Shown here piece by piece: positions 11,449 through 52,763 of a DNA stretch of 64,000 nt. Within the stretch, counting starts at the first letter, position 1, and each line of letters starts with the position of its first letter. Under the pieces are notes generated by a model, which saw only the letters and a list, made by a program, of their open reading frames with translations, searched no databases and was not told the DNA's origin. Source of the stretch: SAR202 cluster bacterium bin87 (GTDB lineage: Bacteria > Chloroflexota > Dehalococcoidia > Lucifugimonadales > UBA3495); assembly GCA_002238825.1 (NCBI GenBank), contig MPNC01000002.1:115180-179179 (forward strand). The letters are read 5' to 3'. The position numbers were made by a program, and so were the translations under genes.

Positions 11449-14400
11449 GTGATCACCAGCACGATAAGCAAGATAACCTTTGCCAACAAAACACTGATTT
11501 TTTCAATCGCAATCCTTTTTGCCGCTCTTCTGCTCGTAATCGGCAGCCACGACACGGTCCGAGCCGGTTCGTTCGCACCCTTCAGGGGTTTCGACCTGCA
11601 CAGCGACCACAACACTCCCGAGGGTGTGTGGTCCGATGGTTCCACCATGTGGGTCCTGTCCGACAACGGGAGTTCGAGCAAGCTGATGGCCTACGGTCTG
11701 GCGACCGGTTCCCGCCTGTCCGCGAAGGACATCACGCTGGCCAGTTACAACGCCAAGCCCCAGGGCATCTGGTCCGACGGCACCATCATGTGGGTCGTAG
11801 ACTGGGACGACGAGAAACTCTACGCCTACAACCTGGATGCCGGCACGCGCATGTCGGACCACGACATCGATCTGGACCACCACAATACGGCTCCCCGGGG
11901 TATTTTGGGCGGCGCCTCCGTCATTTTTGTGGTCGATGTTTCCGATGATTACGTTTACGCCTACAACCGGGCCAACGGCGAACGCTGGCACTTCATGGAA
12001 TTCCACCTGCACAGTGGCAACGATGAGGCCTGGGGCATTTTGTGGCAGGACGGATCGTATTGGGTGAGTGACTTCGACGATCAGATGCTGTACCGCTACA
12101 CGGATCTGGGGTCCGGCCAGTGGGCATCGAGCCCGGCTTTGCGTCTGCCGTTGGAGAACGCCGACGCCAGGGGGATCTGGACGGATGGCGAGGCCATTTG
12201 GATCGTTGACGATAACGACTCTCACGTTTACGCCACGCTGCAAAAGGGTTTCAGGCATCCCGATGAAGACGTCAGCATCAGGGATGTGTCCACCGCCACC
12301 GGCATCTGGGCAGATGGCGAAACCCTGTGGGTCGCGGATTCCGGTGCGGGCACTTTCGGCCAACTCCAGGGGTACGATTTGAGCGACGGTTCCCGCGACC
12401 CGTACGAAATCATCGAGCTGACCGCGACCAACGATGCCCCCGTGGCCATGTGGTCGAACGAGGAGTTCATGTGGGTGGCCGACGATGACAATCGTACCCT
12501 GCACGCCTACGCGCTGGACGGCACGGCCGACTACAGCCCAACAGATACCAAGGTGTTGCCGACCGCGAATTCCGACCCCACCGGCATCTGGTCTGACGGC
12601 AACCTTATCTGGGTCGCCGACTCTGCGGACGACAAGCTGTACGCCTACGAGCTGGGTCAGATGGCACGCCGGTCCGGCCGGGACATCACCCTGGATCCCG
12701 GCAACCAGGATCCGGGCAACATCTGGTCCGATGGCAAAAACATCTGGGTTTTTGATTCGGCGGACCAGCACGCATACGTTTACGGCCTGCGCTCGGGAAA
12801 CCGGAAACCGGCTAAGGAATTCCGACCGGTTCCGGCCAACAGCGACTTCAGCGGCGGGCTGACCGGCCATGGGCTGCGCTTCTGGGTGGTGGACACCGCG
12901 GACGAAAAACTCTTCGCCTACGGCAAGCAGAACACGAAACCCGAATTTGTCGAATCGACGACGCGGTTCACGTTCCTTCACAGCCTGGCCGGCGGCAGTC
13001 TCGTCGGGCTCGCGCCCGAGGCGATCGACGTGGACGGAGATTCACTCACCTATTCCCTCAGCGGCGGTGGCGTACGGTTCCAGATCGATTCTGAGACCCG
13101 CGAGATTCGCACCAGAAACGACGCTACCTTCGATACCATCGGCGAGCGGATTTCGTTGACCCTCTCCGTCACCGACGGCAAGGGCGCACTGGACGACCAT
13201 GATAACAGCGTCGATGCATCGATCATTATCCCGGTGACGGTGGTTGCCAACTACGAACCCGAGTTCGCCACCGCCGACGGCGCGATCTTTGCCGTCGCCG
13301 AGGGTGCCGCGGACACCGTCGTCATCGCAGACCTGGACGTATCAAACCTGGACAGCGACCCACTGACTATCGCCATCAGGAATCAGAACAGGTACCCCTT
13401 CGAGTTGATCGATGGGCAGATCAGCCTCAAGCAGGGCGAGACGCTGGACTACGAAAGCGCTTCCAACTATGAACTGAGGATACGGGTGCGCGACGGCAGG
13501 GATGAATTGGGCGCTGCGGATGAAGCCTGGGACGATGAAATAACCGTCACGGTGTCGGTCACCAACGTGGACGAAGCCGGCGAGGTGTCGGTCAGTTCCA
13601 ACAATCCCCAGGTGGACACTGACGTCTGGGTTTCGCTGTCCGACCCCGACGGATCTGTCGCCAACCTCAGATGGCAATGGCAGAGGGCCGACTCCCCCGA
13701 TGCCACCACCTGGACAGATATCCCCGGGACCATCTCGGCTCGCTACATTCCGGTTTCCGACGACGCCGGAAAGTTCCTGCGCGCCCAGGCGTCCTACGAC
13801 GACGGCCAGGGTACCGGCAAAACGGCCCACGACACCGCCAGCAACGCGGTGCTGGCCGCCCCTCCCACCAATCAGCCGCCGGCTTTTGACGATGGAGCGT
13901 CGGCCAGTCGCTCGGTTGCGGAGAGCGCGGAAGGCGGCGACGCCATCGGCACAGCCATCGGCGCCACGGACCCGGACACCGGCGACACCCTGACCTACGG
14001 CCTGACCGGCAGGGACGCCAACCAGTTCACCATCGACGCAACGACCGGACAGATCTCGCTGGCCGCGTCCGCATCGCTGAACCATGAGACCAGTCCTTCG
14101 CACAGCGTCCGAGTTCGGGTGCGTGACAGCAAGGACCCGCACGGCACGGCCGACGCCGAGTGGGACGCCAGCATCGCGCTGACCATCACCGTGACCGATG
14201 TGGACGAGGCCGGTGTCCTCGGGTTCACAACCGAAAATCCGCAGGTTGACCAGGAACTGGGCGCCTTCCTCACCGACCCCGACGGCTCCATCAGCAATCT
14301 CATTTGGCAATGGCAGAGAGCCGATACCGCCGATGCCACCACCTGGACGGACATCAGCGGCGCAACCTCGGGAGACTACACTCCGGTGTCCGACGACGAG

Positions 14401-16365
14401 GGCAAGTTCCTGCGGGCGAATGCGGCCTATGATGACCGCAATGGCCAGGGCAAATCCGTAAACGAGGTGGTGACCAACGCCGTGCAGCCGAAGCCGGCCA
14501 ATCAGCCGCCGGCATTCGACGAGGGCGCCAGCACAACCCGCTCCATCAGCGAGGACTCCCTGACCGGAGACCCAGTTGGGGCGGCGGTGAGCGCGTCGGA
14601 CCCGGAGGGTGACGGTTTAACCTACTCCATGGGCAGCGGCACGGACTCTGATCACTTCGACGTCGACCCCGCAACCGGGCAGCTGAGCGTTGCGCCCGGA
14701 GCCTCTCTGGACTTCGAGGGCAAGCCGTCCCTGGAGGTTGCGGTGCAGGTGGCGGACGGGAAGGACGTCAGCCACAACCCCGACACCGCGGTTGATGCAA
14801 CCATCACGGTGACCGTCAATCTGGTCAACGCCGATGAACCGGGCAAAATCGCCCTGTCGTCAACCGATGCGGAGGAAGCGGTTGCCCTGACGGCATCCGT
14901 AACCGATCCGGACGGCGGTGTCGCCTCCATCACGTGGCAGTGGGCCAAGTCTGAGGACGGCGCCACCGGCTGGGCAGACATATCCGATGCGGCCACGGAT
15001 ACCTACACTCCGGCCGCCGTCGACGCCGGCGCGCATCTTCGAGCGACCGCGCAGTACACCGACGCAGAGGGAGCGGCCAAACGGGCATCCTCCTCCGCCA
15101 CCAACCCGGTGGTCGGCGTCGATAACGAGCCACCCCGGTTCCTGGAGGGCGAAGGCGCCGAACGCTCCATCGCCGAAAACGCGCTTGCCAGCGCCGCGGT
15201 CGGGGTGCCAATTGCCGCGTCCGACCCCGAGGGTGACTCGCCGACCTACTCGTTGGCCAGCGGCGGCGATTCTGACCAGTTCACTGTTTCAACAAGTTCC
15301 GGTCAACTTTCGGTGGCTACGGGCGCCGCCCTGGACTACGAGAGCAAGTCGGTCCTGGAAATAACGTTGCAGGTTTCCGACGAAAAGGATGCCGACGACA
15401 ACCAGGATGCGGCTGTCGATGACACCATCACCGTGACCATCAACCTCACCAACATTGACGAACCTGGAGAAGTGAACCTGTCGTCCGCGCGACCGGAGGT
15501 CGGTAAGTCTCTCATCGCATCACTCACCGACCCCGACGGCAGTCTGACCAACGCCACCTGGCTCTGGGAAAAGTCTGGAGACGGAGTCGGAGATTGGGAA
15601 AGCGTCAACGGCGGAGCAACCGATACCTACACCCCGGTTTTGGAGGACCAGGACATGTACCTGCGGGCGACCGTCCGCTACACGGACGGCCAGGGCACTG
15701 GCAAGAGCGCCGCAAAGACGTCCGGCAACCGGGTTCAAGCCCCGCAGCAGGTCTCAGTCAACCCGGCCCAGGCCGCCCTCAGTTTCTACGAGCAGTGCCG
15801 GAGCGATGCCCGTCGAGACCTCGCGGCGCGATGCGGGATGAACGAATTCGCCGCTTTCCGGGTCGAACTGGACGGCAGCTATACCATCGACTGGAGCGAT
15901 TGGGACCGCCAACATCCCAACGTGACGGGCTACACCATCGTCCTGGGCAATATGGTTTACCGGGCATACTTCCAGGACAACTCCCAACTGACGCACAGCG
16001 ACACTGAGAACGTTTACGAACACTGTGAGTTCGTGAACGGACGGTGGGATTGCCGGGGTCGCCTGAACAGCGTCTACGATGAAGATATGAGCGGCGAGCC
16101 GACTGAAAGTGGCGTTGTCGCTGCCGGGACCGACCAAACGCAGTGGACCTCTGCCCTCGACAAGCCGGGCCTGTGGGTGTCCGAGCACACGTTCCATCGA
16201 TGGTCCGGAGATGCTACCGACCCCGCCAACGAGCCGACTCCGGTTACATACGTGACCAAAAAGTTCGAGATGGACTTGTACCGCTTCATTGCGCACGGAG
16301 TTCCCGGAGGCTACGGCACCGTATTGATCGACGGAACCAACGGTTTCTTCGAGGTTAGGGAGTAG
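11449..16365 (+). CDS. Secreted ten-repeat propeller/cadherin/Ig-like protein (paralogue 1)
   Basis: 1638 residues starting at GTG. GAGGG lies eight bases upstream, and the same leader and start context occur at the paralogue starting at 26974. A signal/anchor segment (about 12-32) is followed by ten repeats of ~45 residues up to about residue 500. Their core is GIWSDG..MWVxDxxDxKLYAY, as expected for a beta-propeller. Next come alternating cadherin-like repeats and four Ig-like modules with WQW...TWTDI...YTPVSDDxGKFLRA. The C-terminal ~170 residues form a domain with four cysteines (EQC, ARC, EHC, WDC) and DGSYTIDWSDW, shared by the two paralogues. No sorting signal was found. It is probably an extracellular binding or structural protein; ligand and localisation are unknown. 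Confidence 0.9.
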   Translation: MITSTISKITFANKTLIFSIAILFAALLLVIGSHDTVRAGSFAPFRGFDLHSDHNTPEGVWSDGSTMWVLSDNGSSSKLMAYGLATGSRLSAKDITLASYNAKPQGIWSDGTIMWVVDWDDEKLYAYNLDAGTRMSDHDIDLDHHNTAPRGILGGASVIFVVDVSDDYVYAYNRANGERWHFMEFHLHSGNDEAWGILWQDGSYWVSDFDDQMLYRYTDLGSGQWASSPALRLPLENADARGIWTDGEAIWIVDDNDSHVYATLQKGFRHPDEDVSIRDVSTATGIWADGETLWVADSGAGTFGQLQGYDLSDGSRDPYEIIELTATNDAPVAMWSNEEFMWVADDDNRTLHAYALDGTADYSPTDTKVLPTANSDPTGIWSDGNLIWVADSADDKLYAYELGQMARRSGRDITLDPGNQDPGNIWSDGKNIWVFDSADQHAYVYGLRSGNRKPAKEFRPVPANSDFSGGLTGHGLRFWVVDTADEKLFAYGKQNTKPEFVESTTRFTFLHSLAGGSLVGLAPEAIDVDGDSLTYSLSGGGVRFQIDSETREIRTRNDATFDTIGERISLTLSVTDGKGALDDHDNSVDASIIIPVTVVANYEPEFATADGAIFAVAEGAADTVVIADLDVSNLDSDPLTIAIRNQNRYPFELIDGQISLKQGETLDYESASNYELRIRVRDGRDELGAADEAWDDEITVTVSVTNVDEAGEVSVSSNNPQVDTDVWVSLSDPDGSVANLRWQWQRADSPDATTWTDIPGTISARYIPVSDDAGKFLRAQASYDDGQGTGKTAHDTASNAVLAAPPTNQPPAFDDGASASRSVAESAEGGDAIGTAIGATDPDTGDTLTYGLTGRDANQFTIDATTGQISLAASASLNHETSPSHSVRVRVRDSKDPHGTADAEWDASIALTITVTDVDEAGVLGFTTENPQVDQELGAFLTDPDGSISNLIWQWQRADTADATTWTDISGATSGDYTPVSDDEGKFLRANAAYDDRNGQGKSVNEVVTNAVQPKPANQPPAFDEGASTTRSISEDSLTGDPVGAAVSASDPEGDGLTYSMGSGTDSDHFDVDPATGQLSVAPGASLDFEGKPSLEVAVQVADGKDVSHNPDTAVDATITVTVNLVNADEPGKIALSSTDAEEAVALTASVTDPDGGVASITWQWAKSEDGATGWADISDAATDTYTPAAVDAGAHLRATAQYTDAEGAAKRASSSATNPVVGVDNEPPRFLEGEGAERSIAENALASAAVGVPIAASDPEGDSPTYSLASGGDSDQFTVSTSSGQLSVATGAALDYESKSVLEITLQVSDEKDADDNQDAAVDDTITVTINLTNIDEPGEVNLSSARPEVGKSLIASLTDPDGSLTNATWLWEKSGDGVGDWESVNGGATDTYTPVLEDQDMYLRATVRYTDGQGTGKSAAKTSGNRVQAPQQVSVNPAQAALSFYEQCRSDARRDLAARCGMNEFAAFRVELDGSYTIDWSDWDRQHPNVTGYTIVLGNMVYRAYFQDNSQLTHSDTENVYEHCEFVNGRWDCRGRLNSVYDEDMSGEPTESGVVAAGTDQTQWTSALDKPGLWVSEHTFHRWSGDATDPANEPTPVTYVTKKFEMDLYRFIAHGVPGGYGTVLIDGTNGFFEVRE

Positions 16366-16423
16366 AAGACGAAACCGCCGCGCTCGATCCTCCGATCCTC
16401 CGGTGGTGAGGGCACTCTGTGAC

Positions 16424-16456
16424 CAGCCCCGCTGATCTCGTCCGTCACCGGGGCTG
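16424..16456 (+). terminator. Hairpin downstream of paralogue 1
   Basis: Perfect 8-bp arms CAGCCCCG and CGGGGCTG with a 17-base loop start 59 bases after the stop codon at 16365. There is no T-run, so this is a weak terminator-like structure or an mRNA 3' end stabiliser. Confidence 0.4.
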
Positions 16457-16869
16457 CCTCCCTTCAAATATCCGCTTCACGCACCTGGCACACTGACACA
16501 CAGTCCCGTTCCGCCGGGATCGACGCTCTGCCTACCTGCCCCTTTCAACTCTCATGCCTCGTCTGACCAACCTCACCCGTCCCTTGGGCGGATTCGTGCG
16601 TAGCAGGGTGTGTAACCAATGGGTTCAGGCGGATTGGCTGCATAGCCACCCGGTACGCCGGCGGCGGACAAATCCGGGAGTGTGTCGAGCGCGTAAGGGG
16701 CGGCGGCACACCGCAGGGCCGGGACTCAACAATGTCTGTGACCGGTTAGTTCCCGTACAAATGGGGCTGTGCCGTCTGGGCGAATGACTGCGTTCGGGCA
16801 TGGGTAAACTTGCGTTCTGTGGGCGAGAATAAATTTACCCTTGGCTTGGCCGAGGCTCCGATTCCGTGG

Positions 16870-17190
16870 CAGAGTAACCGTGTCATTGATCTCGTATGAT
16901 GTACCGCGTCCTGCTGGGACGGACTGAGGGCAGATTTCCGTCCTGGTGTCCGGCCTTGTGCTCTGGCTTTTTTCTGCCCGGCGACGATCCTCACTCTGGT
17001 GGTGTTGCGCTGCCATTCGGCGAACACCAGCGACATCTGGAGTTGGGCCTTCGCGGCCGCGCTGCCGTCGGATGTGTCGATGGGATCGCGCAGGCACTTG
17101 ATGTAGATGCCCAGGCATCTGTCGGTCAGAGACCGGATGCGGCGCAAGTTGCAGACCAGGCGGGGTCGGCACGCTACGCGTTGCGCATCT
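16870..17190 (-). pseudogene. Serine recombinase (resolvase) remnant
   Basis: On the minus strand a frame reads LRRIRSLTDRCLGIYIKCL, then RDPIDTSDG and MSLVFAEWQRNTTRVRIVAG followed by ARAQGRTPGRK. This matches the middle of small serine recombinases (the LTDPIDT...AEFER...R..GL..AR..GR.GGR pattern). The N-terminal catalytic Ser region and a proper C-terminal HTH are not found in frame, so it is a decayed fragment. It lies next to transposase debris on the opposite strand, marking an old mobile-element insertion site between two paralogous surface genes. Confidence 0.6.
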
Positions 17191-17199
17191 AGACCGTGG

Positions 17200-17434
17200 A
17201 GCGGGTTTTGGCCAGATCAAGCGGGGTCGGGACTTCCGGCAGTTCCTGTTGCGGGGTTTGGAGAGGGTCCAGGAGGAATGGTCCTTGATCTGCACCACCC
17301 ACAACCTGCTCAAACTGTTCTGCTACTGCCGTATGTCGGTCAGTCCGCCGTCGCCCATCTCCCAAACGGTGTGGACCCTGGTCAAAACATACTCCCAATC
17401 AGCAGCGAAACCTAATCGTCAGACGGACTGCTAG
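17200..17434 (+). pseudogene. IS1182-type DDE transposase C-terminal remnant
   Basis: A plus-strand frame reads FGQIKRGRDFRQFLLRGLER followed by EEWSLICTTHNLLKL, the characteristic end of IS1182-family transposases. The upstream codons for TVERV are one base out of frame, and nothing of the DDE core remains. It is a dead insertion-sequence fragment. The rest of 16457-17630 shows no gene. Confidence 0.65.
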
Positions 17435-17630
17435 CCGCAACTTGGCGTACCTTGATCACCTCCGCCATATCGCAAAACATCCCAATTCAACATCCTGCTA
17501 GAGATCTCGACCACCGCAACCATGGCGGCAAGGCCGGTTTCCCCCGCGACTATGCTCTGCTGGCGTTTCTGTGATTCACCGACACTTAAAACGTCATATC
17601 GCTGTTCGCAACTGTCGCTGAATACCGCGA

Positions 17631-17672
17631 CTGCGCAGGCGCCATTCGCATTTTACCCGAGCGCCTGCGCAG
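17631..17672 (-). terminator. Perfect hairpin at 3' end of paralogue 2
   Basis: Twelve-base perfect arms (CTGCGCAGGCGC at 17631-17642 and GCGCCTGCGCAG at 17661-17672) lie 16 bases past the stop of the minus-strand gene ending at 17689. There is no T-tract after the stem. Its position and stability suggest a transcript 3' end. Confidence 0.55.
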
Positions 17673-17688
17673 GTCGGCATTAGCCACG

Positions 17689-20600
17689 TTATCGCTGCGT
17701 CCCAGATACCGAGTTGAAGGAAGCCACGCCGGCAACCGTTACCGTGTGACTATCGTGCGCAGAGCCTCCCGATTTTGGCGTGAAGACGTAACGGTCCACT
17801 TCCACGTCTTTGAGGGCGTAAGTTACCGCTGTGGGTTCCGTCTCAGGATCTCCATTCCACCGGAAGAGCGTTTGCTCGCCCGATACAGATCCCAGCGTTT
17901 CCAGGGCGGAACTCCACTGGGTCCGCTTGAGGTTCGTCGACAACGTGCGCGTTTCCGTTGGCTCCCCGGAACCGTCCACATGATGGACGTGGACCACCGG
18001 ATCCTGACAATTCCAAAGCCCGTCGGATGACTCGCAACTTTCGTACTTGTTATCCAACCGGGAGATGCTGGCCCCGCCGTTGCGCCTGTGATAAGTCCGG
18101 TACACGAACTGCTCCAGGCTAACCGAATAAGCGTTAACGCCAGGATGCTCGGATGCCCAGTCGCTCCAGTCGATGGTGTAGCTGCCATTCAGTTCCACCC
18201 GGTAGTCGGCGAAATCACCGGCGCCGCAATGGGACACCAGGAACGCCGACAAGTCGCTGTTGCAACTGGCCAAAAGGGTTTCCGAGGAACCGCGCCGGTC
18301 GATCGCTATCACGTACTCTGTGGACGCATCGCCGTTGTCATCGGAGACGGTAATGTTGATCTCGTTCTCGCCTTCCGACAGGTCGACCTGGTGCCCCTGC
18401 TTAGTGTCGCTGCTGTCGACGGGTGAAATCGCAACCGTCACCCCTGACTCAGCTGAGGCGACCGTTTTCACCTTGATTTGGGAGGTCGAGTTGGGCACGC
18501 TGAGGGTGTATTCCAGCGTGGCGCCGTTCAACGAGAACGGGATCCTGTTGAATCTGAGCGACTTCAGGGTCGTGTCGACGCCGGCGAGCGTTTGCACTGT
18601 GTTGGAGGACACCTTCGAAGCTGATTTGCCCGAACCCTCGCCGTCGGTATAGGACGCCGTGGCCCGCAGGAACATTCCACCGTCGTCCGACACCGGCGTG
18701 TAGGTGCTGGAAGTGGCGCCCGTAATATCCGTCCATCCGCTTTCCTCGATGGCAGCGCGGGCCCATTGCCAAGTGATGCCAATCAGGCTTCCGTCCGGGT
18801 CGGTCAGGGTGGCCGTGAGCGCTTGGCCCTCCGATGGCTCCGTGGATGACAGGTCCACCAGTCCCTCCTCGTCCACGTTGAGCAGGTTGATCGTAACCGT
18901 GATGGAGTCGTCAACGGATCTATCGTAGTTGTGGTGGGCGTCCTTGAGGTCGGATACCCGCAACACCACCTCGAGGGATGGCCGGGTTTCGTAGTCCAGA
19001 ACGGCCCCGTCCACCACCAACAACCGTCCGTCGGTAGTGTCCAGCAGGAACTGGTTCGAGTCCGGCCCTGTGGCCAACGAGTAGGAGAGGAAGTTTCCTT
19101 CCGGGTCATTGGCCGCGACGGCGGCGCCCACCCAGGTTGCGGTGGTTGCATCCTCGCTCAGAGACCGGGTGGCGCTGTCTCCCTCATAGAATTCGGGCGG
19201 CGCGTTGGCGTCACGATCCAGCACCGGGCTGGCGGCGGTGTGTTCAGCCGTACGTCCAGCGCCCAGCACATCGTCGTAGGAGGCGACCGCCCGCAGGAAC
19301 TTGCCGACATCGGCGCCGACAGGGGTGTACCTCGCGGTCGTGGCGTCGGCGATCTCGGCCCAGTTGTTCGACGGGTTGCTGTCGGCACGCTCCCACTGCC
19401 ACATCAGGTTGGTCACCGATCCGTCAGGGTCGTCCAGACGCGCGGTCAGGGTATGGCCTTCCTTCGGAGACTCAGAATCCGTGGCGACGGTTCCCGGTTC
19501 CTCCGCGTTGGTTATCCTCACGGTCACGTTGATGAACGAGTCCCATGAGATTTCCGATTCCGCGTTGCCGCCGGTGTCCTTGCCGTCATGCACCCGCATT
19601 CGGAATTCGTAGGAGGCCTTGTCCTCGAAGTCCAATTCCACGTTCGCGCCCACGCTGATCTGACCGGTGGACGCGTCAACCTGGAAATAGCCCGCCTCCG
19701 CGCCGATGATACCGTAGGTCAGGGAGTCGCTCTCGGGATCGGTGGCGGTGATGGGGTCACCAACGTTGCTGCCTCCCGCCGCATCCTCGGCGACCGAACG
19801 GGACGCGGAGTAACCATCGTCGAAAGCTGGCGCCCGGTTGGTTGGCGGTTCAGCAAGGACGGGGTTGGCAGTGACGACGGTGGTGACCTGAAGGGTGTCG
19901 GAGTCGTGGTTATCCCAGTAGCTGGCCCGGAACCGCAGGTATTGCCCCACGTCGTCCGCCACTGGCGTGTACTCCAAAAGCTTGGTGTTGCGGTTTCTGT
20001 TGACGACGGCTTCCCAGGTCGTAGCGTTGGGATCGGCGCTCCGGCCCACCTGCCAGTTGATCTGCCGGCTGTTCCCGAAGTCAACGCCGTCCGGTTCCAT
20101 AAGCGTGCCGGTTACAGCCTCGCCGACCACGGGCAGTGAGCTGCTCAAGGTGATTTCGCCCGCCTCCGCAACGTTGTTGACCTGTATTGTCACGTCGATC
20201 TGGTCGTCCCACGAAGTGTCCGCGTTGTCGTCCGGGTCCAGGTTGTCCGACACGCGGATGGTCAGGTCGTAGGTCGTCTTCCTCTCGTAGTCCAGGCTTT
20301 TTCCGGGCTGGAGCTTGATCGCCCCATCGGTGATGGCGAACGGGTTGCGCGGGCTCAAGCTCAGGTCGTAGATCAGCGGGTCGGCGTCCAGGTCCTCAAC
20401 CCCGAGTTGGGCGATGACGTCGGCATTCGTGATGCCCTCGTTCACCGTGAACGTCGATCCGCTGGCGGTCGTGAACACGGGGTCAGCGTTGTGCAGCACC
20501 CGGACGTTGGCTATCAGCGTGTCGTCCACGCGGTTGTCGGTGTGATTGAGTCCCCGCTTGCCATCTTTGACGGTAATGGCGACGTGGAACTCGTCGCCTC

Positions 20601-22308
20601 CGCTGAACCTGGCGTGGTTGGCGGTATGCAGCGCGCCAGTGTGGGAGTCCACGGTGAAGTGATGCGAGTCCTGCCCGTCAACGGAGTAGGTCAGGGTGTC
20701 GCCGTCCAGGTCGGTGGCCTCGGGTGGCAGTCCAATCAGGCTGCCACCAGCGATTGAATGATGCACCTCGAAGTTGACGAAGGCGCTGCCGAACTCGGGT
20801 GGAGCGTTCACCTTGCGATACGCGAACAGCTTGTCCCGGTCGGTGTCCACCACCCAGATGATCCTCCGGTGGCCCGCCATGCCCCCGCTGTACTCGTCAT
20901 TCGGCGGCGCCGGCCTGAATTCGACCTCTTCATTGCGACTTCCCGTCGCGAGATCGTAGGCATAAGCGTGCTTGTCCTTGGTGTCCAGGACCCAGAGGTT
21001 GCCGCCGTCGGACCAGATTTCCGTCGGGTCCTCATTGCCGGGATCCAGATCGAAATCCCTGCCGGCGTCCCGCAGCCCGTTGAGGAAATTGTAGGCATAG
21101 ACTTTGAGGTCTTCGGAGTCGGCGATCCACATGGTGGCGCCGTCGGACCAGACGCCGATCGGGTCCTCGATGTCGGCAGTCAGGATTATTGGAAAATCCC
21201 GCGAGACGGGTTCTCCGGTGGCCAGGTCAAACACCTTCAGGGTTTGACTGGAAGAGCCGGTTACCCAGAGTTCCGTTCCATCCGACCAGATGGACACTGG
21301 GTCCAGCGAAGAATCATTGAGCGTGATGTCTTTGGAGGCGTCCCGCGACCCGTCGCCCGCGTTGTAAGCGCGCAGGGTCGGGTTGCCCGCGGAGCCCGCG
21401 TCCGCGACGTACATCGTGGTCCCGTCCGTCCAGATACCCCGGGGAGTATCCGCTTCGCTGATGTCGATATCGGACGCCGAGCGGCGGAACCCCTGGGCGT
21501 ACATGGCATAGACATGCTTGTCATCGGCATCCACGATCCACATGGTCTCGCCCGAGAGTTTGCCCGCGATCCCCCGCGCATCCTTGTTCCCCAGCGGCAG
21601 GCGCAGGTTCTGAGATGGTGCGGGATGGAGCGGCCCAGCAACAAATAACCCCCCTGCAGATGGTTGTACGTACGCGTAGGCCATGTCGTCGTTGGCATCG
21701 GCTACCCAGAGAGTGTAGTCGGTGGTCCACATGCCCCAGGGATGGTCATTGTTGTCGGCAAGGTCGAACTCCCGGTTCCGCTGGCGCGCACCGTCGCTTT
21801 GTCGATACGCGTAAACCTTCTTGTCGTCCTTGTCCACGACTATGATGTTCCCGTACATGATCGATATTCCCCGGGGCGCGTCGTTGGCGCCGGCCAGGTT
21901 GATGTCACGGTTGGGCAGGCGTTGTCCGTCGCTGAGATGGTACGCATAGAGCTTCGTGTCGTCCCAGTCAGCGACGAACATGATGGAATCGCGCGCCACG
22001 ATACCCTGCGGATCATCGTTGCCGCTGCCCAGCGCGATGTCTCGGTCCTCGAGGCGCGCGCCCGTGGCCAGGCTGTACGCATACAGCTTGTCGTCGTCTT
22101 CGGACACCACCCAGATGGTGGTGGTGTTGGACCAGGCGCCTTCAGGCTTGTCGTGACCCGCGGCGAGATCGAAACCTCGGTCCGGTTGGGGCACTGACCC
22201 GTAGGCCGTGCCGTGGCCGGCAAGCAGGAAGATGACGATGATCAGCGATGTGATTGTTATGGCGATGGTGATGCGATACGGTTTCGAGAATGGCTTTATG
22301 AACAGCAT
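17689..22308 (-). CDS. Secreted ten-repeat propeller/cadherin/Ig-like protein (paralogue 2)
   Basis: 1539 residues. The ATG is preceded by GGAG nine bases upstream, and a signal/anchor segment at about 12-32 follows a basic N-terminus. Ten ~45-residue propeller-type repeats run to about residue 500, with the same irregular units as the paralogues: repeat 3 lacks WSDG, repeat 5 begins LRLPLGNKDARGI, repeat 10 has GHRRIIWVVD. Cadherin-like repeats and Ig-like WQWxRA modules follow. Unlike its relatives it then has one cadherin-like beta-sandwich (SLRFNRIPFSLNGATLEYTL). The C-terminal four-Cys domain (ASC, SHC, ESC, WNC) includes DGSYTIDWSDW-like NGSYTIDWSDW. It lies 259 bases downstream of the paralogue ending at 22568 and converges with paralogue 1. 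Function unknown; an extracellular role is inferred. Confidence 0.9.
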   Translation of the reverse strand: MLFIKPFSKPYRITIAITITSLIIVIFLLAGHGTAYGSVPQPDRGFDLAAGHDKPEGAWSNTTTIWVVSEDDDKLYAYSLATGARLEDRDIALGSGNDDPQGIVARDSIMFVADWDDTKLYAYHLSDGQRLPNRDINLAGANDAPRGISIMYGNIIVVDKDDKKVYAYRQSDGARQRNREFDLADNNDHPWGMWTTDYTLWVADANDDMAYAYVQPSAGGLFVAGPLHPAPSQNLRLPLGNKDARGIAGKLSGETMWIVDADDKHVYAMYAQGFRRSASDIDISEADTPRGIWTDGTTMYVADAGSAGNPTLRAYNAGDGSRDASKDITLNDSSLDPVSIWSDGTELWVTGSSSQTLKVFDLATGEPVSRDFPIILTADIEDPIGVWSDGATMWIADSEDLKVYAYNFLNGLRDAGRDFDLDPGNEDPTEIWSDGGNLWVLDTKDKHAYAYDLATGSRNEEVEFRPAPPNDEYSGGMAGHRRIIWVVDTDRDKLFAYRKVNAPPEFGSAFVNFEVHHSIAGGSLIGLPPEATDLDGDTLTYSVDGQDSHHFTVDSHTGALHTANHARFSGGDEFHVAITVKDGKRGLNHTDNRVDDTLIANVRVLHNADPVFTTASGSTFTVNEGITNADVIAQLGVEDLDADPLIYDLSLSPRNPFAITDGAIKLQPGKSLDYERKTTYDLTIRVSDNLDPDDNADTSWDDQIDVTIQVNNVAEAGEITLSSSLPVVGEAVTGTLMEPDGVDFGNSRQINWQVGRSADPNATTWEAVVNRNRNTKLLEYTPVADDVGQYLRFRASYWDNHDSDTLQVTTVVTANPVLAEPPTNRAPAFDDGYSASRSVAEDAAGGSNVGDPITATDPESDSLTYGIIGAEAGYFQVDASTGQISVGANVELDFEDKASYEFRMRVHDGKDTGGNAESEISWDSFINVTVRITNAEEPGTVATDSESPKEGHTLTARLDDPDGSVTNLMWQWERADSNPSNNWAEIADATTARYTPVGADVGKFLRAVASYDDVLGAGRTAEHTAASPVLDRDANAPPEFYEGDSATRSLSEDATTATWVGAAVAANDPEGNFLSYSLATGPDSNQFLLDTTDGRLLVVDGAVLDYETRPSLEVVLRVSDLKDAHHNYDRSVDDSITVTINLLNVDEEGLVDLSSTEPSEGQALTATLTDPDGSLIGITWQWARAAIEESGWTDITGATSSTYTPVSDDGGMFLRATASYTDGEGSGKSASKVSSNTVQTLAGVDTTLKSLRFNRIPFSLNGATLEYTLSVPNSTSQIKVKTVASAESGVTVAISPVDSSDTKQGHQVDLSEGENEINITVSDDNGDASTEYVIAIDRRGSSETLLASCNSDLSAFLVSHCGAGDFADYRVELNGSYTIDWSDWASEHPGVNAYSVSLEQFVYRTYHRRNGGASISRLDNKYESCESSDGLWNCQDPVVHVHHVDGSGEPTETRTLSTNLKRTQWSSALETLGSVSGEQTLFRWNGDPETEPTAVTYALKDVEVDRYVFTPKSGGSAHDSHTVTVAGVASFNSVSGTQR

Positions 22309-22506
22309 TGCAGTTCACTCCGTGTATGTGCGGCTCTCGAATATGCCGGAGCCGGATGGGTAAATGTTTATGGGTTTTCGGTGAACGAACGCGGTTATGG
22401 AATTGGTCAGAATGCATTTATGAGTTACCCAGGGACCGCTTCGTTATGTGCGCGTCCCACGTAACTCGCGTCGGCTGACCCCCGATGCCAAATCGCCGGT
22501 TGCGAT

Positions 22507-22541
22507 GCAGGTCCCAAGATCGGTTTCGGCTTGGGACCTGC
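22507..22541 (-). terminator. Perfect hairpin at 3' end of paralogue 3
   Basis: Arms GCAGGTCCCAAG (22507-22518) and CTTGGGACCTGC (22530-22541) pair perfectly over 12 bases, starting 26 bases past the stop codon of the minus-strand gene ending at 22568. No T-tract follows. It separates the transcript from the next gene, which begins at 22308. Confidence 0.55.
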
Positions 22542-22567
22542 GGTATCCCACGGAAAGCCTCTTGTCG

Positions 22568-25500
22568 CTACTGGCGGTAGTCGAACCCGTTGCCTCCGTG
22601 CACCAACACTGCTCCCCTCTCGCCGGACACGCCCTGGGGTTGAAATTGGTAGAGATCCATTTCAAATTTTTCCACCCGGTAGGTCACCGGAGTCGGTTCG
22701 TTGTCGGGGTCGGTTGCGTCTCCGCTCCAGCGGTAGAAAGTCGGGTTCGACACCCAACGTCCCGGCGCTTCCAGCGCGGATGTCCACTCGGTCAGGTCCA
22801 CTCCCTCGGCCAACACGCGGGTAGTGGAAGGCGTGCCATCCATGTGCTCCCAGATGTTGCTGTCCAGGGTGCCCTGGCAGTTCCACCGGTCGTCGACGAA
22901 CTCACAACTCTGGTAGACATCGGCCAACTCGGCGGAGTTCTGCGAATCGCCGTCCAGGTAGTAGAACGCATAAACGAACTCGTTCAGACCGATGTCGTAG
23001 CCGGTGACGTCGGGGTGCGCAGCGTCCCATTCAGCCCAGTTGATGGTGTAACTGCCGTCCGCCGAAATACGGAAGGACGCGAACTCGTTCGTGCCGCAAT
23101 CGACCACCAGGCCGGCCGCCTTGTCCTGGAGACAGGCTTCGTAGAAGTTCGGCAGGGTCGATGGCTCGCTGTTTTGGGACCCGACTGGGTCCTCAGTGTT
23201 GGTCAAACCAACCGAGCCGTCGTTGCCGCTCGCAGGCACCGGCTGGGATGTGGTGGCGCCGGCGCTCTTGCCGGGACCCTCGCCGTCCGTGTAATTCGCC
23301 TCCGCGCGCAGGTACATGCCTTCGTCGTCGGCATTCGGCGTATAGCTGCTCGCGGATGCGCCGGCGATGTCCTCCCAGTTGGTGGCGCCGTCCTCCGACC
23401 TGGACCATTGCCACACCGCGGCTGACAGGCTCCCGTCCGGGTCCGTCAGCGATGCCGTGATCTCGGACCCGACCTCCGGTTGGGTCGCATCGAGCCTCAC
23501 GACGCCCGGTTCATCAACGTTGACCAGGTTGACAGTTACTGCAATGGTGTCGTCAATTACATCATCTGCGCTGTGGAAGGCATCCTTGTTGTCGGATACC
23601 TGCACCGTCAGAATGATGGAGGCATTGGCCTCATAGTCCAGCAGCTGCCCGGTGGTTACCATGATTTCGCCGGTGGCCGGTTCGATGGAGAACAGGTTGG
23701 AACCCGCTTGATCGGCGATGGAGTAGGTCAGGTCGTCCCCGTCGGGATCGGTGGCCGTTACCGCCGCGCCCACCGGCGCTCCGACGGACGCGCCTTCGCT
23801 CACAGAGCGGATCGCGGACGCGCCTTCGTCGAATTCCGGTGACCCGTTGAAGGCCTGCATCACCGCTGCGGTGGCTGCGCTGGCTGCCTGTTTGCCGGTC
23901 CCCGCACCGTCGTCGTAGGACACCTGAGCTCTCAGGTACTTGCCAACGTCGGTGGATACGGGAGTGTAATAATCCGAGTTCGCGCCGCTGATGGCGGTCC
24001 ATGAGGTGTTGCAAGAAACGCTGTCGGCCCGCTGCCACTGCCAGGAGAGGTTGGAGACGTCGCCATCCGGGTCGGCCAACGTGGCGGATATTTCGACATT
24101 TTCCTCCGGCGTGGTCATGGTCAAATCCACGATGCCTTCTTCATCCACGTTGGTCACGTTCACCGTGACGGCGATGTACGCGTCCCACGCCGTGTCCGCA
24201 TTGCCGTCCGCGTCCTTGCTGTCGCGAACCTGCACCGTGACGGAATATGAGCTCCTGGCCTCGTGGTCCAGAACCGTGTCGCTGCCCAGGGATATCTGGC
24301 CGGTGCTGGCGTCAATGCTGAACGAACCTGCGTCATCGCCAATCAGACCATAGGTCAGGGTGTCCCCGGTGTCGGAGTCTGATGCGGCGACCGCGGCCCC
24401 GATTGCTGCGCCGCCCGTCGCATCCTCAGCCACGTCTCGCGTCGCTGATGCTCCGTCGTCGAAGGTGGGCGCTGCGTTGGTTGCGACCGCGTTGGAAACC
24501 GCGTTTTCAGAGACCAAGCGGACGACCCGGTCGACGCTGCCGTCCTGGTGGTCCTTGTAGGTGGCGGTGAACCTCAGATAATGGTCGGCGTCGGCAGCGA
24601 CTGGCGTGTACCCGAGCAAATGGGTTGTGGTGATCGCGCTGGTTAGCTCGGTCCACGGCCCTGAACTGGCATTGGCGCTTTTCTCCACCACCCATGCGAC
24701 CTCGGTGACGCCGTACACGTAAATGCCGTCCGGGTCGCGAAGGCTCGCCACGATCTCCGTGCCCACATCGGGTTGGGCATGGTTCAGGGTGACATACCCG
24801 GGCTCATCGACGTTGTTCACCTTCACCGTGAAGTAGACCCAGTCATCAACCTCTTCGACGGGGGCGCCGTTGTCGTCCTTGCCGTCACTCACGAACACCA
24901 CGAGCGGATAGTTATGGAAATACTCGTAGTCGAGCCATCCAGCGGGTTTGATTTTGAGCTGGTCACCGTCCATTTTGAACGGCTTGTTGTGAAGGCTGTA
25001 ACCGTTGAACCTGACCCAGTAATCAAGCGGGTCACCATCCGGGTCCGAGGCTTCGATCCGGCCGATGACGGTTCCCCCCGGAACATTTTCGTCGATGGTG
25101 AATAGCGTCATGTTTGGTGTCGAGATCACGGGGTTCGAGTTTTCCAATACCTTGACGGTGATACCGATCACATCATCAGGACCGTAATCAACGCCGTCCA
25201 GGCGGCTCTTGCCGTCGGAAACCTGCACGATGAGCGAGTAGCTGTCGCCCTGCTGAAAGCCGGGCGACCCCGCTGCGGTGTATATCTTGCGCGTTTCCCG
25301 ATCCATCGTGAACTTGCCGACATCCGAGCCACCGATGCCATAGGTCAGGCTGTCGCCGTCAGCATCCGTGGCGGCGGGGACGGTGCCCACATAGCTTTCG
25401 CCGGCGATGGTGTGATGAACCTGCAGTTCGGTGGTCGAAGTCTGGAAGGCAGCGGGCGCATTGGGCCGGCCGTAGGCGTACAGCAGGTCGTCGTCAGCGT

Positions 25501-26974
25501 CGGTCATCCAAAAGCGCAGACCGTGGCCGGTGAATCCGGGGCCGAGGCGATCGTTATACGGCGAGGGCCGGAATTCTGCTGATTGCTTGCGGTGAATTTG
25601 AACATGGCTGTAGTCCGAGTCGCTGTATTTGAGCTCGTACGCGTAAACGTGCGCGTCCGCGGTATCCAGCACCCACATGGTCTCGCCGTCCGACCATATC
25701 CCGCCGGCGTCCGTGTTTTCCGGGTCCAGTTTGATATCCCACTGGAATCGCTGGTCGAGGTAGGTCATGGAGTAGGCGTACAGCCTGGATGTGCCAGGGC
25801 GGGTGATCCACATGACGTCGCCATCCGACCAAATTCCCTGGGGATTGTTGAGCTCGGACCAGGTTTCGAACTGTTTGGCGGAATGGGTGTCCCCGCTATC
25901 GTCGCCCAATTCGTAGGCGAAGATTTTGTTAACATCGCCGTCGGAGACCCAAACGTGGGTGCCGTCTGACCAGATGCCCCGCGGGTCATCATTTGCCGAG
26001 TTCAGGACGGTGTCTTTCCCACTCTGGCGAGCGCCATCGGACAGCCGGTATGCCAGAAGTTTCCGGTCGGGGCTCGCGCCGCCATCCACAACCCACATGG
26101 TCGACCCGTCGGTCCAGATGCCGCGTGGAGTATCCGCCGCGCTGACGTCTATTTCGTCATCGGTGTGTCGGAAGTGCCTGTAATAGATGCCATAGAGATA
26201 TTGGTCCTCGTTGTCCACAACCCACATGGTCTCGCCGTCGGACCATATGCCCCGGGCATCCAGATTGTCTTTTTGCAGCCGGACGTCGCGTTTTGAGTCG
26301 TGATCGCCCGAGTACATGTTGTATGCGTACAGCCTGTTGTCGTCGAGGTCGCTGACCCAGGCATACCCGCCGCCTATCCAGACACCCCAGGGGTGGTCGT
26401 TGGACCCGTGCAGGTTGAATTCGACGTCCCGTCGCCTTGAGCCGTCATATTGGCTGTACGCGTAAACGTAGGAATCATCCTTGTCTACAACCAAAATGGC
26501 GTTGAACTGGCCGGTAATTCCCCGGGGAGCGTCGTTGCTGCCGGCCAGGTCGATGTCCTTGTTCGCCAGACGGTTGCCGGTATCGAGGTCGTAGGCGTAG
26601 ATCTTGGTGTCATCCCAGTCCGACACCCAGATTGTGGCGGTGTCGGACCAGATGCCCCGGGGTTTGCCATTGGAGCTGTGCAGTTCAATGGACTTGTCTG
26701 CCAGGTGATCGCCGCTGGACAGGTCATAGGCGACCAGTTTGCCATTGGCATTGTCCACCACCCAGATGGTGGAGCCGTCGGACCAGACGCCTTCGGGCGT
26801 GCTGTCAGTGTCCAAAGGTGCAGAGATGTCGATCCCGATGCCAGGTATGTTGTGCGAAGCGTCGACCGTGTCGGACGGGATCATGCTGAGCAGCGCGATT
26901 GCGATGAGCGTTGCGAGTGTTATGGCAAGCTTGGTATGGGGCGGTTTGGTTTTATTCTTCAGGGTCATTATCAC
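22568..26974 (-). CDS. Secreted ten-repeat propeller/cadherin/Ig-like protein (paralogue 3)
   Basis: 1468 residues from a GTG at 26974. This start was chosen because GAGAGGG precedes it at good spacing and because the sequence around it (GGGATATAACCGTGAT) mirrors the start of paralogue 1. The frame stays open 14 codons upstream, and an ATG two codons later is also possible. After a signal segment ending near DTVDA there are ten ~45-residue WSDG/WVxD repeats, then cadherin-like and Ig-like WQW modules. A low-complexity linker near VPASGNDGSVG precedes the C-terminal domain with four cysteines (EAC, VDC, QSC, WNC) and DGSYTINWAEW. It is co-directional with paralogue 2. A TTGACA at 27060-27065 (minus strand) could be its -35 element, but no good -10 was seen. 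Confidence 0.9.
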   Translation of the reverse strand: MIMTLKNKTKPPHTKLAITLATLIAIALLSMIPSDTVDASHNIPGIGIDISAPLDTDSTPEGVWSDGSTIWVVDNANGKLVAYDLSSGDHLADKSIELHSSNGKPRGIWSDTATIWVSDWDDTKIYAYDLDTGNRLANKDIDLAGSNDAPRGITGQFNAILVVDKDDSYVYAYSQYDGSRRRDVEFNLHGSNDHPWGVWIGGGYAWVSDLDDNRLYAYNMYSGDHDSKRDVRLQKDNLDARGIWSDGETMWVVDNEDQYLYGIYYRHFRHTDDEIDVSAADTPRGIWTDGSTMWVVDGGASPDRKLLAYRLSDGARQSGKDTVLNSANDDPRGIWSDGTHVWVSDGDVNKIFAYELGDDSGDTHSAKQFETWSELNNPQGIWSDGDVMWITRPGTSRLYAYSMTYLDQRFQWDIKLDPENTDAGGIWSDGETMWVLDTADAHVYAYELKYSDSDYSHVQIHRKQSAEFRPSPYNDRLGPGFTGHGLRFWMTDADDDLLYAYGRPNAPAAFQTSTTELQVHHTIAGESYVGTVPAATDADGDSLTYGIGGSDVGKFTMDRETRKIYTAAGSPGFQQGDSYSLIVQVSDGKSRLDGVDYGPDDVIGITVKVLENSNPVISTPNMTLFTIDENVPGGTVIGRIEASDPDGDPLDYWVRFNGYSLHNKPFKMDGDQLKIKPAGWLDYEYFHNYPLVVFVSDGKDDNGAPVEEVDDWVYFTVKVNNVDEPGYVTLNHAQPDVGTEIVASLRDPDGIYVYGVTEVAWVVEKSANASSGPWTELTSAITTTHLLGYTPVAADADHYLRFTATYKDHQDGSVDRVVRLVSENAVSNAVATNAAPTFDDGASATRDVAEDATGGAAIGAAVAASDSDTGDTLTYGLIGDDAGSFSIDASTGQISLGSDTVLDHEARSSYSVTVQVRDSKDADGNADTAWDAYIAVTVNVTNVDEEGIVDLTMTTPEENVEISATLADPDGDVSNLSWQWQRADSVSCNTSWTAISGANSDYYTPVSTDVGKYLRAQVSYDDGAGTGKQAASAATAAVMQAFNGSPEFDEGASAIRSVSEGASVGAPVGAAVTATDPDGDDLTYSIADQAGSNLFSIEPATGEIMVTTGQLLDYEANASIILTVQVSDNKDAFHSADDVIDDTIAVTVNLVNVDEPGVVRLDATQPEVGSEITASLTDPDGSLSAAVWQWSRSEDGATNWEDIAGASASSYTPNADDEGMYLRAEANYTDGEGPGKSAGATTSQPVPASGNDGSVGLTNTEDPVGSQNSEPSTLPNFYEACLQDKAAGLVVDCGTNEFASFRISADGSYTINWAEWDAAHPDVTGYDIGLNEFVYAFYYLDGDSQNSAELADVYQSCEFVDDRWNCQGTLDSNIWEHMDGTPSTTRVLAEGVDLTEWTSALEAPGRWVSNPTFYRWSGDATDPDNEPTPVTYRVEKFEMDLYQFQPQGVSGERGAVLVHGGNGFDYRQ

Positions 26975-27875: not shown

Positions 27876-28541
27876 TCACTCGCGGTCCACGTACCCATCC
27901 AGAAGTCCGTTCCGCACGGACCACAGCACAAGTCCCTGCATCGTCCCCACGTTGAGCTTTTGTTGAATGCCATAGATCGCGTTCCGGACGGTCACCGGCT
28001 TGATCCCCCTGGCTTCCGCGATTTGGGCGTAGGACATACCAGTAGCGAAAGCGGTCAGAATCTCGCGTTCCCTGGCGGTCAGTTCATCGGCAGATTCCGT
28101 TCCGGGCCGTCCACGGATCGATGCAAAGGTCCTCTGAACCAGGTCGACGGGCAGACGAAGCTCGCCACGCGCCACGCCCCGCACCGCCGCCAGGAATTGT
28201 TGCCGGTCCGTTCCTTTCTGAAGGTACCCGGTGGCGCCGGCGGCCACGGCATCCACCACGGCGTCCTCCTCGGTGGAGGCCGTCAGCATGATCACCCGGG
28301 TATTGGGCGCGGCTTCAATGATCTCCCGGCACGCCATCGCGCCATCCTTGTTCGGCATCATCACGTCCATAACCACCAGGTCCGGCGACACCTCGGCGGC
28401 AATCCTCACCGCTTCATTGCCGTCCGCCGCCTGACCCACCACCTCAAACTCGCCCGATTGTTCGAGCACCTGCTGAAGGCCGATCCGCATTATGGAATGG
28501 TCATCAACGATCATCACCGTGGTTCGCTGCTGCGATGGCAT
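27876..28541 (-). CDS. NarL/FixJ-type response regulator (LuxR-type HTH)
   Basis: 221 residues from an ATG with GAGGGGG upstream; the open frame extends further but overlaps the kinase gene. The receiver domain (about 7-125) has the acidic pair D13-D14, the phospho-acceptor D59 in VVMDVMMPNKDG, the conserved Thr in VIMLTAS, and Lys109 in YLQKG. The C-terminal LuxR-type helix-turn-helix (about 150-212) has LTAREREILTAFATGMSYAQ and IKPVTVRNAI. It starts 14 bases after the stop of the histidine kinase gene, so the two are surely co-transcribed and form a two-component system. Target genes are not shown by the sequence. The nearest are the surface-protein genes and the HTH/membrane regulator gene. 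Confidence 0.93.
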   Translation of the reverse strand: MPSQQRTTVMIVDDHSIMRIGLQQVLEQSGEFEVVGQAADGNEAVRIAAEVSPDLVVMDVMMPNKDGAMACREIIEAAPNTRVIMLTASTEEDAVVDAVAAGATGYLQKGTDRQQFLAAVRGVARGELRLPVDLVQRTFASIRGRPGTESADELTAREREILTAFATGMSYAQIAEARGIKPVTVRNAIYGIQQKLNVGTMQGLVLWSVRNGLLDGYVDRE

Positions 28542-28555
28542 TGCGGTCCCCCTCG

Positions 28556-29800
28556 CTACCGGTCCACTGGCGCCAGGCAAGTTATAGTCGCGCCGCCCAT
28601 CTCGCCCTTCTGCTCCACCGAGAGACGGCCGCCCGTCCGCTCGGCTGCCATGCACATGTTGGCGAAACCATGACCGCGCTCCGCGTAATTATCGGGAAGC
28701 CCGATCCCGTCGTCCGACACCCGCAGGCGAATGTCCTTTTCGCCAAACTCCAGACCGACCGACACCCGGCTCGCCCCGGCATGGCGGAACGCGTTGGTAA
28801 GCGCGTTGTGCGCAATTGAGAAAAGACTGCTCTTCGCCTCAACTGAAAGCGAAGGCTCCACCCCCGTCTCGGTCATATCGGCCACCACCGACGTAACGTT
28901 GGTGAAGCTGCTCACATGGGAACGAAGGGCCCGGCCCAATTCCCGTCCCTCGTAGATGCCGGCGATGTCGATTGGACGCCGCAGCTCCCACATCGTGGAC
29001 CGCGACAGCGCGGAGGTCGCCTCAAGCGTGGCGATCAGCTCGGGATTCCCGTGCCCGGCCAGTTCTTTCGCTGTGTCGATACCCATCCCGATGAGGAAAA
29101 CCGACTGGGCAGCCGTGTCATGGATCGCCTGCGACACCTCTACCCGTTCACGCTCCAGGGCGCGCTCGCGCTCCACCGACTGCTGCCACCGGATGCGTTC
29201 AAACCGGGAAGCTACGTTCACCGCGGCAACGACGGCATACATGACCGCCACTCGCGCCAGCAGCGTCTTTTCGTCCCGGTCCCCCAGGTCCAAGCCTGCC
29301 CCCGCCGTCAGCGATATGCCCAGATAGACCAGGGACACCATCGTCACCCAGAGCATGTTGAGCCGAAACGAAGTGAACATCGCCGCGAATGCGGCCATGG
29401 CAGGGTAGTAGAACAGGTGGAAGAAGTCGTGGCTGAAACCACCGCTGATCGCGGTGCCGGCCGAGACCAGCAGCACGTCGAGCCCATAGAGCGCCAGGAG
29501 CCAGTGCCAGGTGACTGGCCGGTTGGACCGCAGACGGTAGTGAAGGAACGCAGTGAAGCCGATCAGCGCCGCCATGATCACCCCATAGGCGGCAAATTTG
29601 ATCATTCCGTAATGTGGACGATACACCAGTTCGATCAAGCATATTACGGAGATAAGCCAGTGTGCCCTGACCGAGACGGTCGTGAAGTACTTCAACCCGT
29701 CCGGATCAAACTGGTTCACCGTGATCTTGACCACCCGCACGGCGTTGGCGGCCTTGGTGGCCAGCCTTGGTACCATGTTGCGTTCCGATACGAGAGACAT
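28556..29800 (-). CDS. NarL-family membrane sensor histidine kinase
   Basis: 414 residues. About five or six hydrophobic segments (44-200) form a membrane sensor containing GGFSHDFFHLFYYPAMAAFA. A coiled stretch (RWQQSVERERALERERVEVS) follows. The HisKA_3 dimerisation box has H227 in QAIHDTAAQSVFLIGMGID, and the HATPase_c domain has NALTNAFRHAGA, DDGIGLPDNYAERGHG and GGATITC. No cytoplasmic PAS or GAF is present. Start at 29800 is likely; an ATG at 29776 with GGAA upstream is an alternative. Its partner is the response regulator immediately downstream. A close paralogue, including the membrane sensor, begins near 62887 and runs off the window. The signal sensed is unknown. Confidence 0.92.
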   Translation of the reverse strand: MSLVSERNMVPRLATKAANAVRVVKITVNQFDPDGLKYFTTVSVRAHWLISVICLIELVYRPHYGMIKFAAYGVIMAALIGFTAFLHYRLRSNRPVTWHWLLALYGLDVLLVSAGTAISGGFSHDFFHLFYYPAMAAFAAMFTSFRLNMLWVTMVSLVYLGISLTAGAGLDLGDRDEKTLLARVAVMYAVVAAVNVASRFERIRWQQSVERERALERERVEVSQAIHDTAAQSVFLIGMGIDTAKELAGHGNPELIATLEATSALSRSTMWELRRPIDIAGIYEGRELGRALRSHVSSFTNVTSVVADMTETGVEPSLSVEAKSSLFSIAHNALTNAFRHAGASRVSVGLEFGEKDIRLRVSDDGIGLPDNYAERGHGFANMCMAAERTGGRLSVEQKGEMGGATITCLAPVDR

Positions 29801-52629: not shown

Positions 52630-52715
52630 CGCGAGGAGCGGAGCAACGCGGCGAGCTCGTTCCCGCTGTAGCGTTCCTTGCCCCAACGAGATTGCCGCGC
52701 TGCGCTCGCAATGAC
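52625..52715. repeat. GTCATTGCGAG-type palindromic intergenic repeat
   Basis: The element is bounded by GTCATCGCGAGGAGCGGAGC on the left and the inverted GCCGCGCTGCGCTCGCAATGAC on the right (shown here from both ends). These terminal inverted sequences are characteristic of a widespread bacterial repeat whose translation gives RHCERSAAI or similar. It sits between the DUF1111 gene stop (52764) and the imelysin coding region, and it supplies the latter's most likely ATG. Confidence 0.8.
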
Positions 52716-52763
52716 GGTTCCTGTGAAACTGGGTACGCGTGATGATATGGCGGACCGGTGGCA

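Follow-up and report, generated by a model that had tools for sequence, protein, structure and literature searches.

The stretch of DNA analysed here (the window) comprises 64,000 bp (positions 115,180 to 179,179) of contig MPNC01000002.1 from SAR202 cluster bacterium bin87, a sponge-associated member of the Chloroflexota, and codes for three large proteins, designated as A, B, and C, each with ten repeat units of about 45 residues in its first approximately 500 residues. According to structural models, this ten-unit domain is very probably composed of a pair of five-bladed propellers in tandem, the most likely reading because relatives across several phyla nearly always carry blocks of exactly five units. 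The features of the three proteins are as follows:

11449-16365, + strand: frame of protein A
11449..11568, + strand: N-terminal hydrophobic signal of A (TLIFSIAILFAALLLVIGS...VRA, followed by GS; from hydropathy, cleavage site judged by eye)
11569..12258, + strand: predicted propeller 1 of A, units 1-5 with the N-terminal closing strand RGFDL (unit hidden Markov model, HMM; AlphaFold2, AF2, model)
12259..12924, + strand: predicted propeller 2 of A, units 6-10 (AF2 of the half alone; match to 3mbr)
12946..15768, + strand: stalk of A, alternating cadherin-like and immunoglobulin-like (Ig-like) domains (Pfam Cadherin, E 2.8e-34, four stretches; SCAB-Ig, E 2.9e-9)
15784..16362, + strand: conserved C-terminal domain of A with four invariant cysteines (alignment A5; genome searches)
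17689-22308, - strand: frame of protein B
21487..22197, - strand: predicted propeller 1 of B, units 1-5 (unit HMM and alignment with A)
20815..21486, - strand: predicted propeller 2 of B, units 6-10 (unit HMM and alignment with A)
18277..20796, - strand: cadherin-like/Ig-like stalk of B (Pfam Cadherin, E 7e-25; Cadherin-like, E 3.9e-12)
17692..18261, - strand: conserved C-terminal domain of B (alignment A5)
22568-27016, - strand: frame of protein C, TTG start
26168..26863, - strand: predicted propeller 1 of C, units 1-5 (unit HMM and alignment with A)
25469..26167, - strand: predicted propeller 2 of C, units 6-10 (unit HMM and alignment with A; ratio of nonsynonymous to synonymous substitution rates, dN/dS, 0.58 against the orthologue)
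23165..25450, - strand: cadherin-like/Ig-like stalk of C (Pfam Cadherin, E 2.7e-34; SCAB-Ig, E 1.1e-13)
22571..23155, - strand: conserved C-terminal domain of C (alignment A5)

Ten repeat units and their positional correspondence

Ten units per protein had been counted in a preliminary description of this DNA, and the unit profile finds the same number, with starts at 56, 103, 148, 193, 239, 282, 329, 376, 421, and 465 in A; at 54, 99, 144, 189, 241, 288, 336, 382, 427, and 471 in B; and at 73, 118, 163, 208, 253, 296, 344, 391, 436, and 489 in C. The irregular units described there are also present: unit 3 has no WSDG in any of the three proteins (GILGGAS, GISIMYG, and GITGQFN, respectively), RLxxxNxDARGI stands before unit 5, and unit 10 has GHxxxxW directly ahead of the first cadherin-like repeat. 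The WSDG core holds generally, but the exact motif is also absent from units 4 and 7 of A, units 1, 2, 4, and 5 of B, and units 2 and 4 of C, among others. The frame of the third protein reaches 27016 and not 26974; the latter position is an in-frame GTG within protein C, the valine of which is kept in the orthologue.

When the ten-unit regions were aligned, B and C were 48% and 46% identical to A, respectively, with short gaps only. The best unit-to-unit matches among A, B, and C joined units of the same ordinal in 45 of 60 cases, while 6 are expected by chance, and the mean same-position score was 10.8 standard deviations above that of 5000 permutations. In the repeat phylogeny, which had been set as a test beforehand, the units group by position and not by protein; a tree built from the 80 units of eight Chloroflexota proteins explains the ordinal labels with 14 changes, against a minimum of 9 and a mean of 59.6 after shuffling. 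The window genome has three ten-unit genes and one weak partial match elsewhere. The related genome G001 has a one-to-one partner for each of A, B, and C, and its fourth paralogue groups with one from G013 (supports 99-100%). Duplication of the complete ten-unit domain, as proposed earlier, agrees with the clustering by position and with the one-to-one orthologues; the triplication of the whole ten-unit protein is real and predates the split from the related genome. The dN/dS of the orthologue pairs is 0.26-0.31, and the three proteins are under purifying selection, with propeller 2 of C evolving faster (0.58, the highest among the stretches measured). Copying of one five-unit block was also considered as the origin of the ten units; unit n is no closer to n+5 than to other offsets, so there is no sign of such copying, and two five-unit modules may have been joined, or may have diverged beyond recognition.

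Blocks of five units and the predicted fold

The repeat unit occurs in Chloroflexota, Gemmatimonadota, Verrucomicrobiota, Acidobacteriota, and Acidimicrobiia. Blocks of at least four units were counted with the unit HMM, which set the boundaries automatically, in proteins hand-picked as complete blocks of one family, including the eight ten-unit proteins of the window family; truncated or frame-shifted proteins were omitted, as were weak partial-unit matches at class or phylum level (e.g., L031, L032, L034, and L051-L071), which resemble other propeller families. Among 55 blocks, 35 have five units, 14 have ten, and two have fifteen, i.e., 51 are multiples of five, and the others are two fours, one sixteen, and one seven ending in a stretch of N. 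If a multiple of five has a chance of 0.2, the binomial tail is 3e-31, but the blocks are related and this value is a guide only. Free-standing blocks of five are the commonest form in the relatives, spacers part five-unit blocks in several proteins (L080 and L081 with three such blocks each; L082, L083, and L086 with two), and fused tens or fifteens are present in Chloroflexota, Verrucomicrobia, and Acidobacteria. The fixed count of ten described previously is valid in the A/B/C lineage, but blocks of 5, 10, and 15 are found elsewhere.

The block ends show velcro closure, in which the terminal strand is permuted to the N-terminus. Block-final units end at HMM position 36 or earlier in 43 of 55 cases, whereas 33 of the 321 inner units do so (Fisher p 6e-25); in 20 of the 55 blocks, an isolated strand corresponding to the end of the repeat lies ahead of unit 1. 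The block joint seen in G382 is YAYVLPDGDSDDGARDPDSDIDL, and its counterpart in protein A is VYATLQKGFRHPDEDVSI. An open solenoid, i.e., an array freely expandable without closure, was among the fold options of the preliminary description and is suggested by contiguous Acidobacteria arrays of 15 and more units; it is the least probable of all the readings, as the strand permutation at the ends of blocks implies a closed structure, multiples of five are far above the expectation for free expansion, the positions are conserved across A, B, and C, and the AF2 models disagree with it.

AF2 was run without templates on the ten-unit domain of A (six sequences) and on units 6-10 alone (thirteen sequences); Verrucomicrobia proteins were omitted from the first model, as alignment A2 had them out of register. 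This structure prediction, which had been proposed as a check, gave a propeller-like fold for the domain of A (predicted local distance difference test, pLDDT, 82.1; predicted template modelling score, pTM, 0.70). Model residues 6-234, covering units 1-5, aligned on glutaminyl cyclase 3mbr with Z 23.5 and root-mean-square deviation (rmsd) 2.6 over 213 residues (VIA-align). For units 6-10 alone (pLDDT 86.5, pTM 0.84), the top five rows were all glutaminyl cyclases with Z 21.2-22.9, 3mbr being the best with Z 22.9. Glutaminyl cyclases of the 3mbr type are five-bladed, and the alignment of both halves to these closed structures points to a toroid closed by five blades in each half. Three clear strands and a short outer strand were predicted per unit, consistent with blades of four antiparallel strands. 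The tandem propellers of LRP6 and megalin align with the A model over 1-458 with a large rmsd, because their two propellers are placed differently.

A single ring of ten blades, like the Vps10p domain of sortilin, exists in nature and would be compatible with ten contiguous units having no spacer. Against it, units 1-5 align alone to a closed five-bladed propeller, so the model leaves no room for such a ring; units 6-10 also fold alone as a five-bladed propeller, the five-unit block commonly stands free in relatives, and the sortilin-type Asp-box SxDxGxTW is missing from residues 1-530 of all three proteins. The ten-bladed ring is thus considered highly improbable. Contiguous blades divided between complete propellers have been described previously, as 14 blades fold as 7+7 in PDB 2YMU (PMC6805158) and 15 blades are predicted as 7+8 (PMC9218822). 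Two five-bladed propellers, the remaining option of the preliminary description, are supported by the block counts in relatives and by the AF2 models of both halves, which together argue against both the ring and the solenoid.

Several points weigh against two five-bladed propellers with a binding role. The AF2 models were built on 6 and 13 sequences, ring closure in them was judged from secondary structure and structural alignments, and the position of one propeller relative to the other is uncertain (pTM 0.70 for both together). Unit 10 in the window family often retains a residual end-of-repeat match (HMM end 41-44 in most), and the velcro pattern is therefore clearer in the relatives than in A, B, and C. 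Two Gemmatimonadota blocks, L144 and L145, have four recognisable units; in L144 a degenerate fifth unit may precede the four. One Acidobacteria array has sixteen units including an exact duplication of 75 residues, and fifteen without it. The adhesin role proposed below is suggested by architecture and habitat.

The 75-residue duplication is in tandem in the L128 array (1978-5241, - strand) and represents a recent event or an assembly artefact. The richest genome among those examined is that of Acidobacteria isolate CO36386bin_12 (G402, L128-L139), with 54 five-unit profile matches and several proteins of 10-16 contiguous units. Verrucomicrobia ten-unit proteins were rejected as orthologues of A, B, and C, as no positional correspondence was found at any circular shift, which makes an independent fusion likelier. 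A separate conserved protein of 337-366 residues with two weak units is present across the genus (L035-L046 and L004, G000:C32:551773-552009) and was not counted in the family. Plasmids gave no tblastn match with the window domain or the five-unit block, phages gave no tblastn match with the five-unit block, and no match was found in viral contigs.

Other domains, neighbouring genes, and proposed role

Hydropathy revealed a hydrophobic signal at the start of A, B, and C and no second strongly hydrophobic stretch, and their export and surface display are presumed. The matches of the stalks to Pfam Cadherin (PF00028) are all over the curated cut-off; ZirU-family matches also fall on the cadherin/Ig stalk, but under the cut-off, and were not accepted. 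The C-terminal domain is restricted to the A/B/C group in its own genome, and that of A matches nothing in Pfam, while its PDB sequence matches do not go below E 0.37. Elsewhere in the genus, this domain stands alone in single matches in G010 (C1:1585993-1586523) and G004 (C180:6299-6829), the former with an internal TAG stop, and these are possibly remnants of lost genes. Long frames opposite A, B, and C (11503-12981 on the - strand and others) were read as a by-product of base composition and not genes. PADLOC identified nothing for A.

Two regulatory genes lie upstream of C:

27876..28655, - strand: LuxR-type response regulator, upstream of C (Pfam Response_reg, E 5.3e-29, and GerE; 86% identity in L076)
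28556..29800, - strand: histidine kinase with HisKA_3 and HATPase_c (Pfam), upstream of the regulator (80% identity in L076)

The gene order kinase-regulator-C-B is kept in the relative L076, and this two-component system perhaps controls the propeller proteins. Adjoining A, a protein of 2554 residues with leucine-rich repeats, cadherin-like, and fn3 domains is encoded at 2972-10636 (+ strand). Beyond the kinase-regulator pair, a protein of 3366 residues with cadherin-like domains is encoded at 32206-42306 (+ strand), its N-terminus being 90% identical in L076. The window also codes for a bacterial protein with HTTM (E 8e-66) and a vitamin K-dependent gamma-carboxylase-like lumenal domain (E 3e-46) at 50165-51523 (+ strand), two imelysin (Peptidase_M75) genes close together at 51520-52965 and 54235-55446 (both - strand), and a protein of 985 residues at 59438-62395 (- strand), in which four stretches match fn3 and one match is to cadherin.

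Each of A, B, and C would be an exported and probably surface-associated binding protein, with a signal peptide, two five-bladed propellers without spacer, a cadherin-like/Ig-like rod, and a cysteine-containing C-terminal domain. The elementary module would be a five-unit block closing on itself, with the strand ahead of unit 1 supplying the outer strand missing from the fifth unit; two such modules would have fused in the A/B/C lineage, and the whole protein would then have multiplied to at least four paralogues. Cadherin-domain genes are reported in PMC8163846 as enriched in sponge-associated genomes, and several relatives seem to originate from sponge genomes, as the prefixes in their names, APA and RHO, would correspond to Aplysina aerophoba and Rhopaloeides odorabile of the same paper. 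Because of this architecture and habitat, surface or secreted adhesins of sponge symbionts are our best guess for A, B, and C. In the sponge, the propellers may have a host, matrix, or glycan ligand, although the chances for and against a host-binding role there are about even.

The fold class is ordinary; what distinguishes the repeat is that it comes in multiples of five, the number of blades that closes a ring, is doubled in A/B/C, and is kept in place by whole-protein duplication, which reduces a puzzling repeat count to a simple structural rule. Only tentatively, we propose an uncatalogued propeller lineage of sponge-associated and other aquatic bacteria from several phyla, growing only by five-blade modules (5, 10, 15) with tandem fusions that arose independently in different phyla, and serving as the recognition head of a host-binding family of sponge symbionts. 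The series of 5, 10, and 15 units with rare exceptions offers a natural set in which to test what fixes the number of blades and how closed rings become fused. Should the heads prove to bind molecules of the sponge, they would be candidates for recognition between symbiont and host.

Relation to known propellers

None of Pfam, NCBIfam, and PHROGs contains a model dedicated to the family, which extends over several phyla, often in sponge-associated genomes. PHROG 22523 (unknown function) matches residues 63-213 of B with E 9.5e-8, while PF22729 'NCH3' matched no more than one stretch of unit length, which was taken as a similarity at the level of the repeat and discounted. SGL/SMP-30 (PF08450) matches 10 of 13 members of alignment A4 at E up to 1 (best E 2.3e-11) and is absent from the matches of full-length A, B, and C at E up to 0.1; Arylesterase also matches alignment A4 members (E 1e-10), and NHL (PF01436) matches one of the 13, with E 0.19. 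A PDB sequence search with a single protein gave no match, but profile A4 found the NHL-derived design Pizza6 (E 9e-9) and NHLRC2 (E 9.5e-7). By these sequence comparisons, the family appears distantly related to SGL/NHL propellers. This lineage is six-bladed, so closure with five units would be a variant and separates the A/B/C family from it despite the similarity of profiles.

Plant-type and bacterial glutaminyl cyclases (3mbr, 3nol, 2iwa, 2faw, 3nok) are the best structural match of both A halves (Z 21-23.5 over approximately 215 residues). This and the SGL and Arylesterase matches would allow the propellers to be enzymes of glutaminyl-cyclase-like or SMP-30/lactonase-like type instead of binding modules. 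We regard this as unlikely, since identity to glutaminyl cyclases is 10-12%, no glutaminyl-cyclase model of Pfam matches A, B, or C at E up to 0.1, and conservation falls on the W, D, G, and Y that recur in each blade and not on a single site. Unlike these enzymes, A, B, and C are predicted to have two fused propellers on a cadherin/Ig stalk.

LRP5/6 and LRP2 (megalin) also have tandem propellers on an extracellular receptor and match the whole ten-unit model, but their propellers are six-bladed and of the YWTD type with EGF modules between, and no YWTD motif is present in A, B, or C. Cadherin-domain proteins of sponge symbionts share the secreted cadherin-like repeats, while a tandem five-bladed head and a C-terminal domain are not described for them in the passages of PMC8163846 consulted here. 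In the WRAP propeller Npun_R6612 of Nostoc (2YMU), 14 contiguous blades likewise form two complete propellers of seven blades each (PMC6805158), but those blades are nearly identical WD40 units, whereas the units of A, B, and C are diverged and fixed by position.

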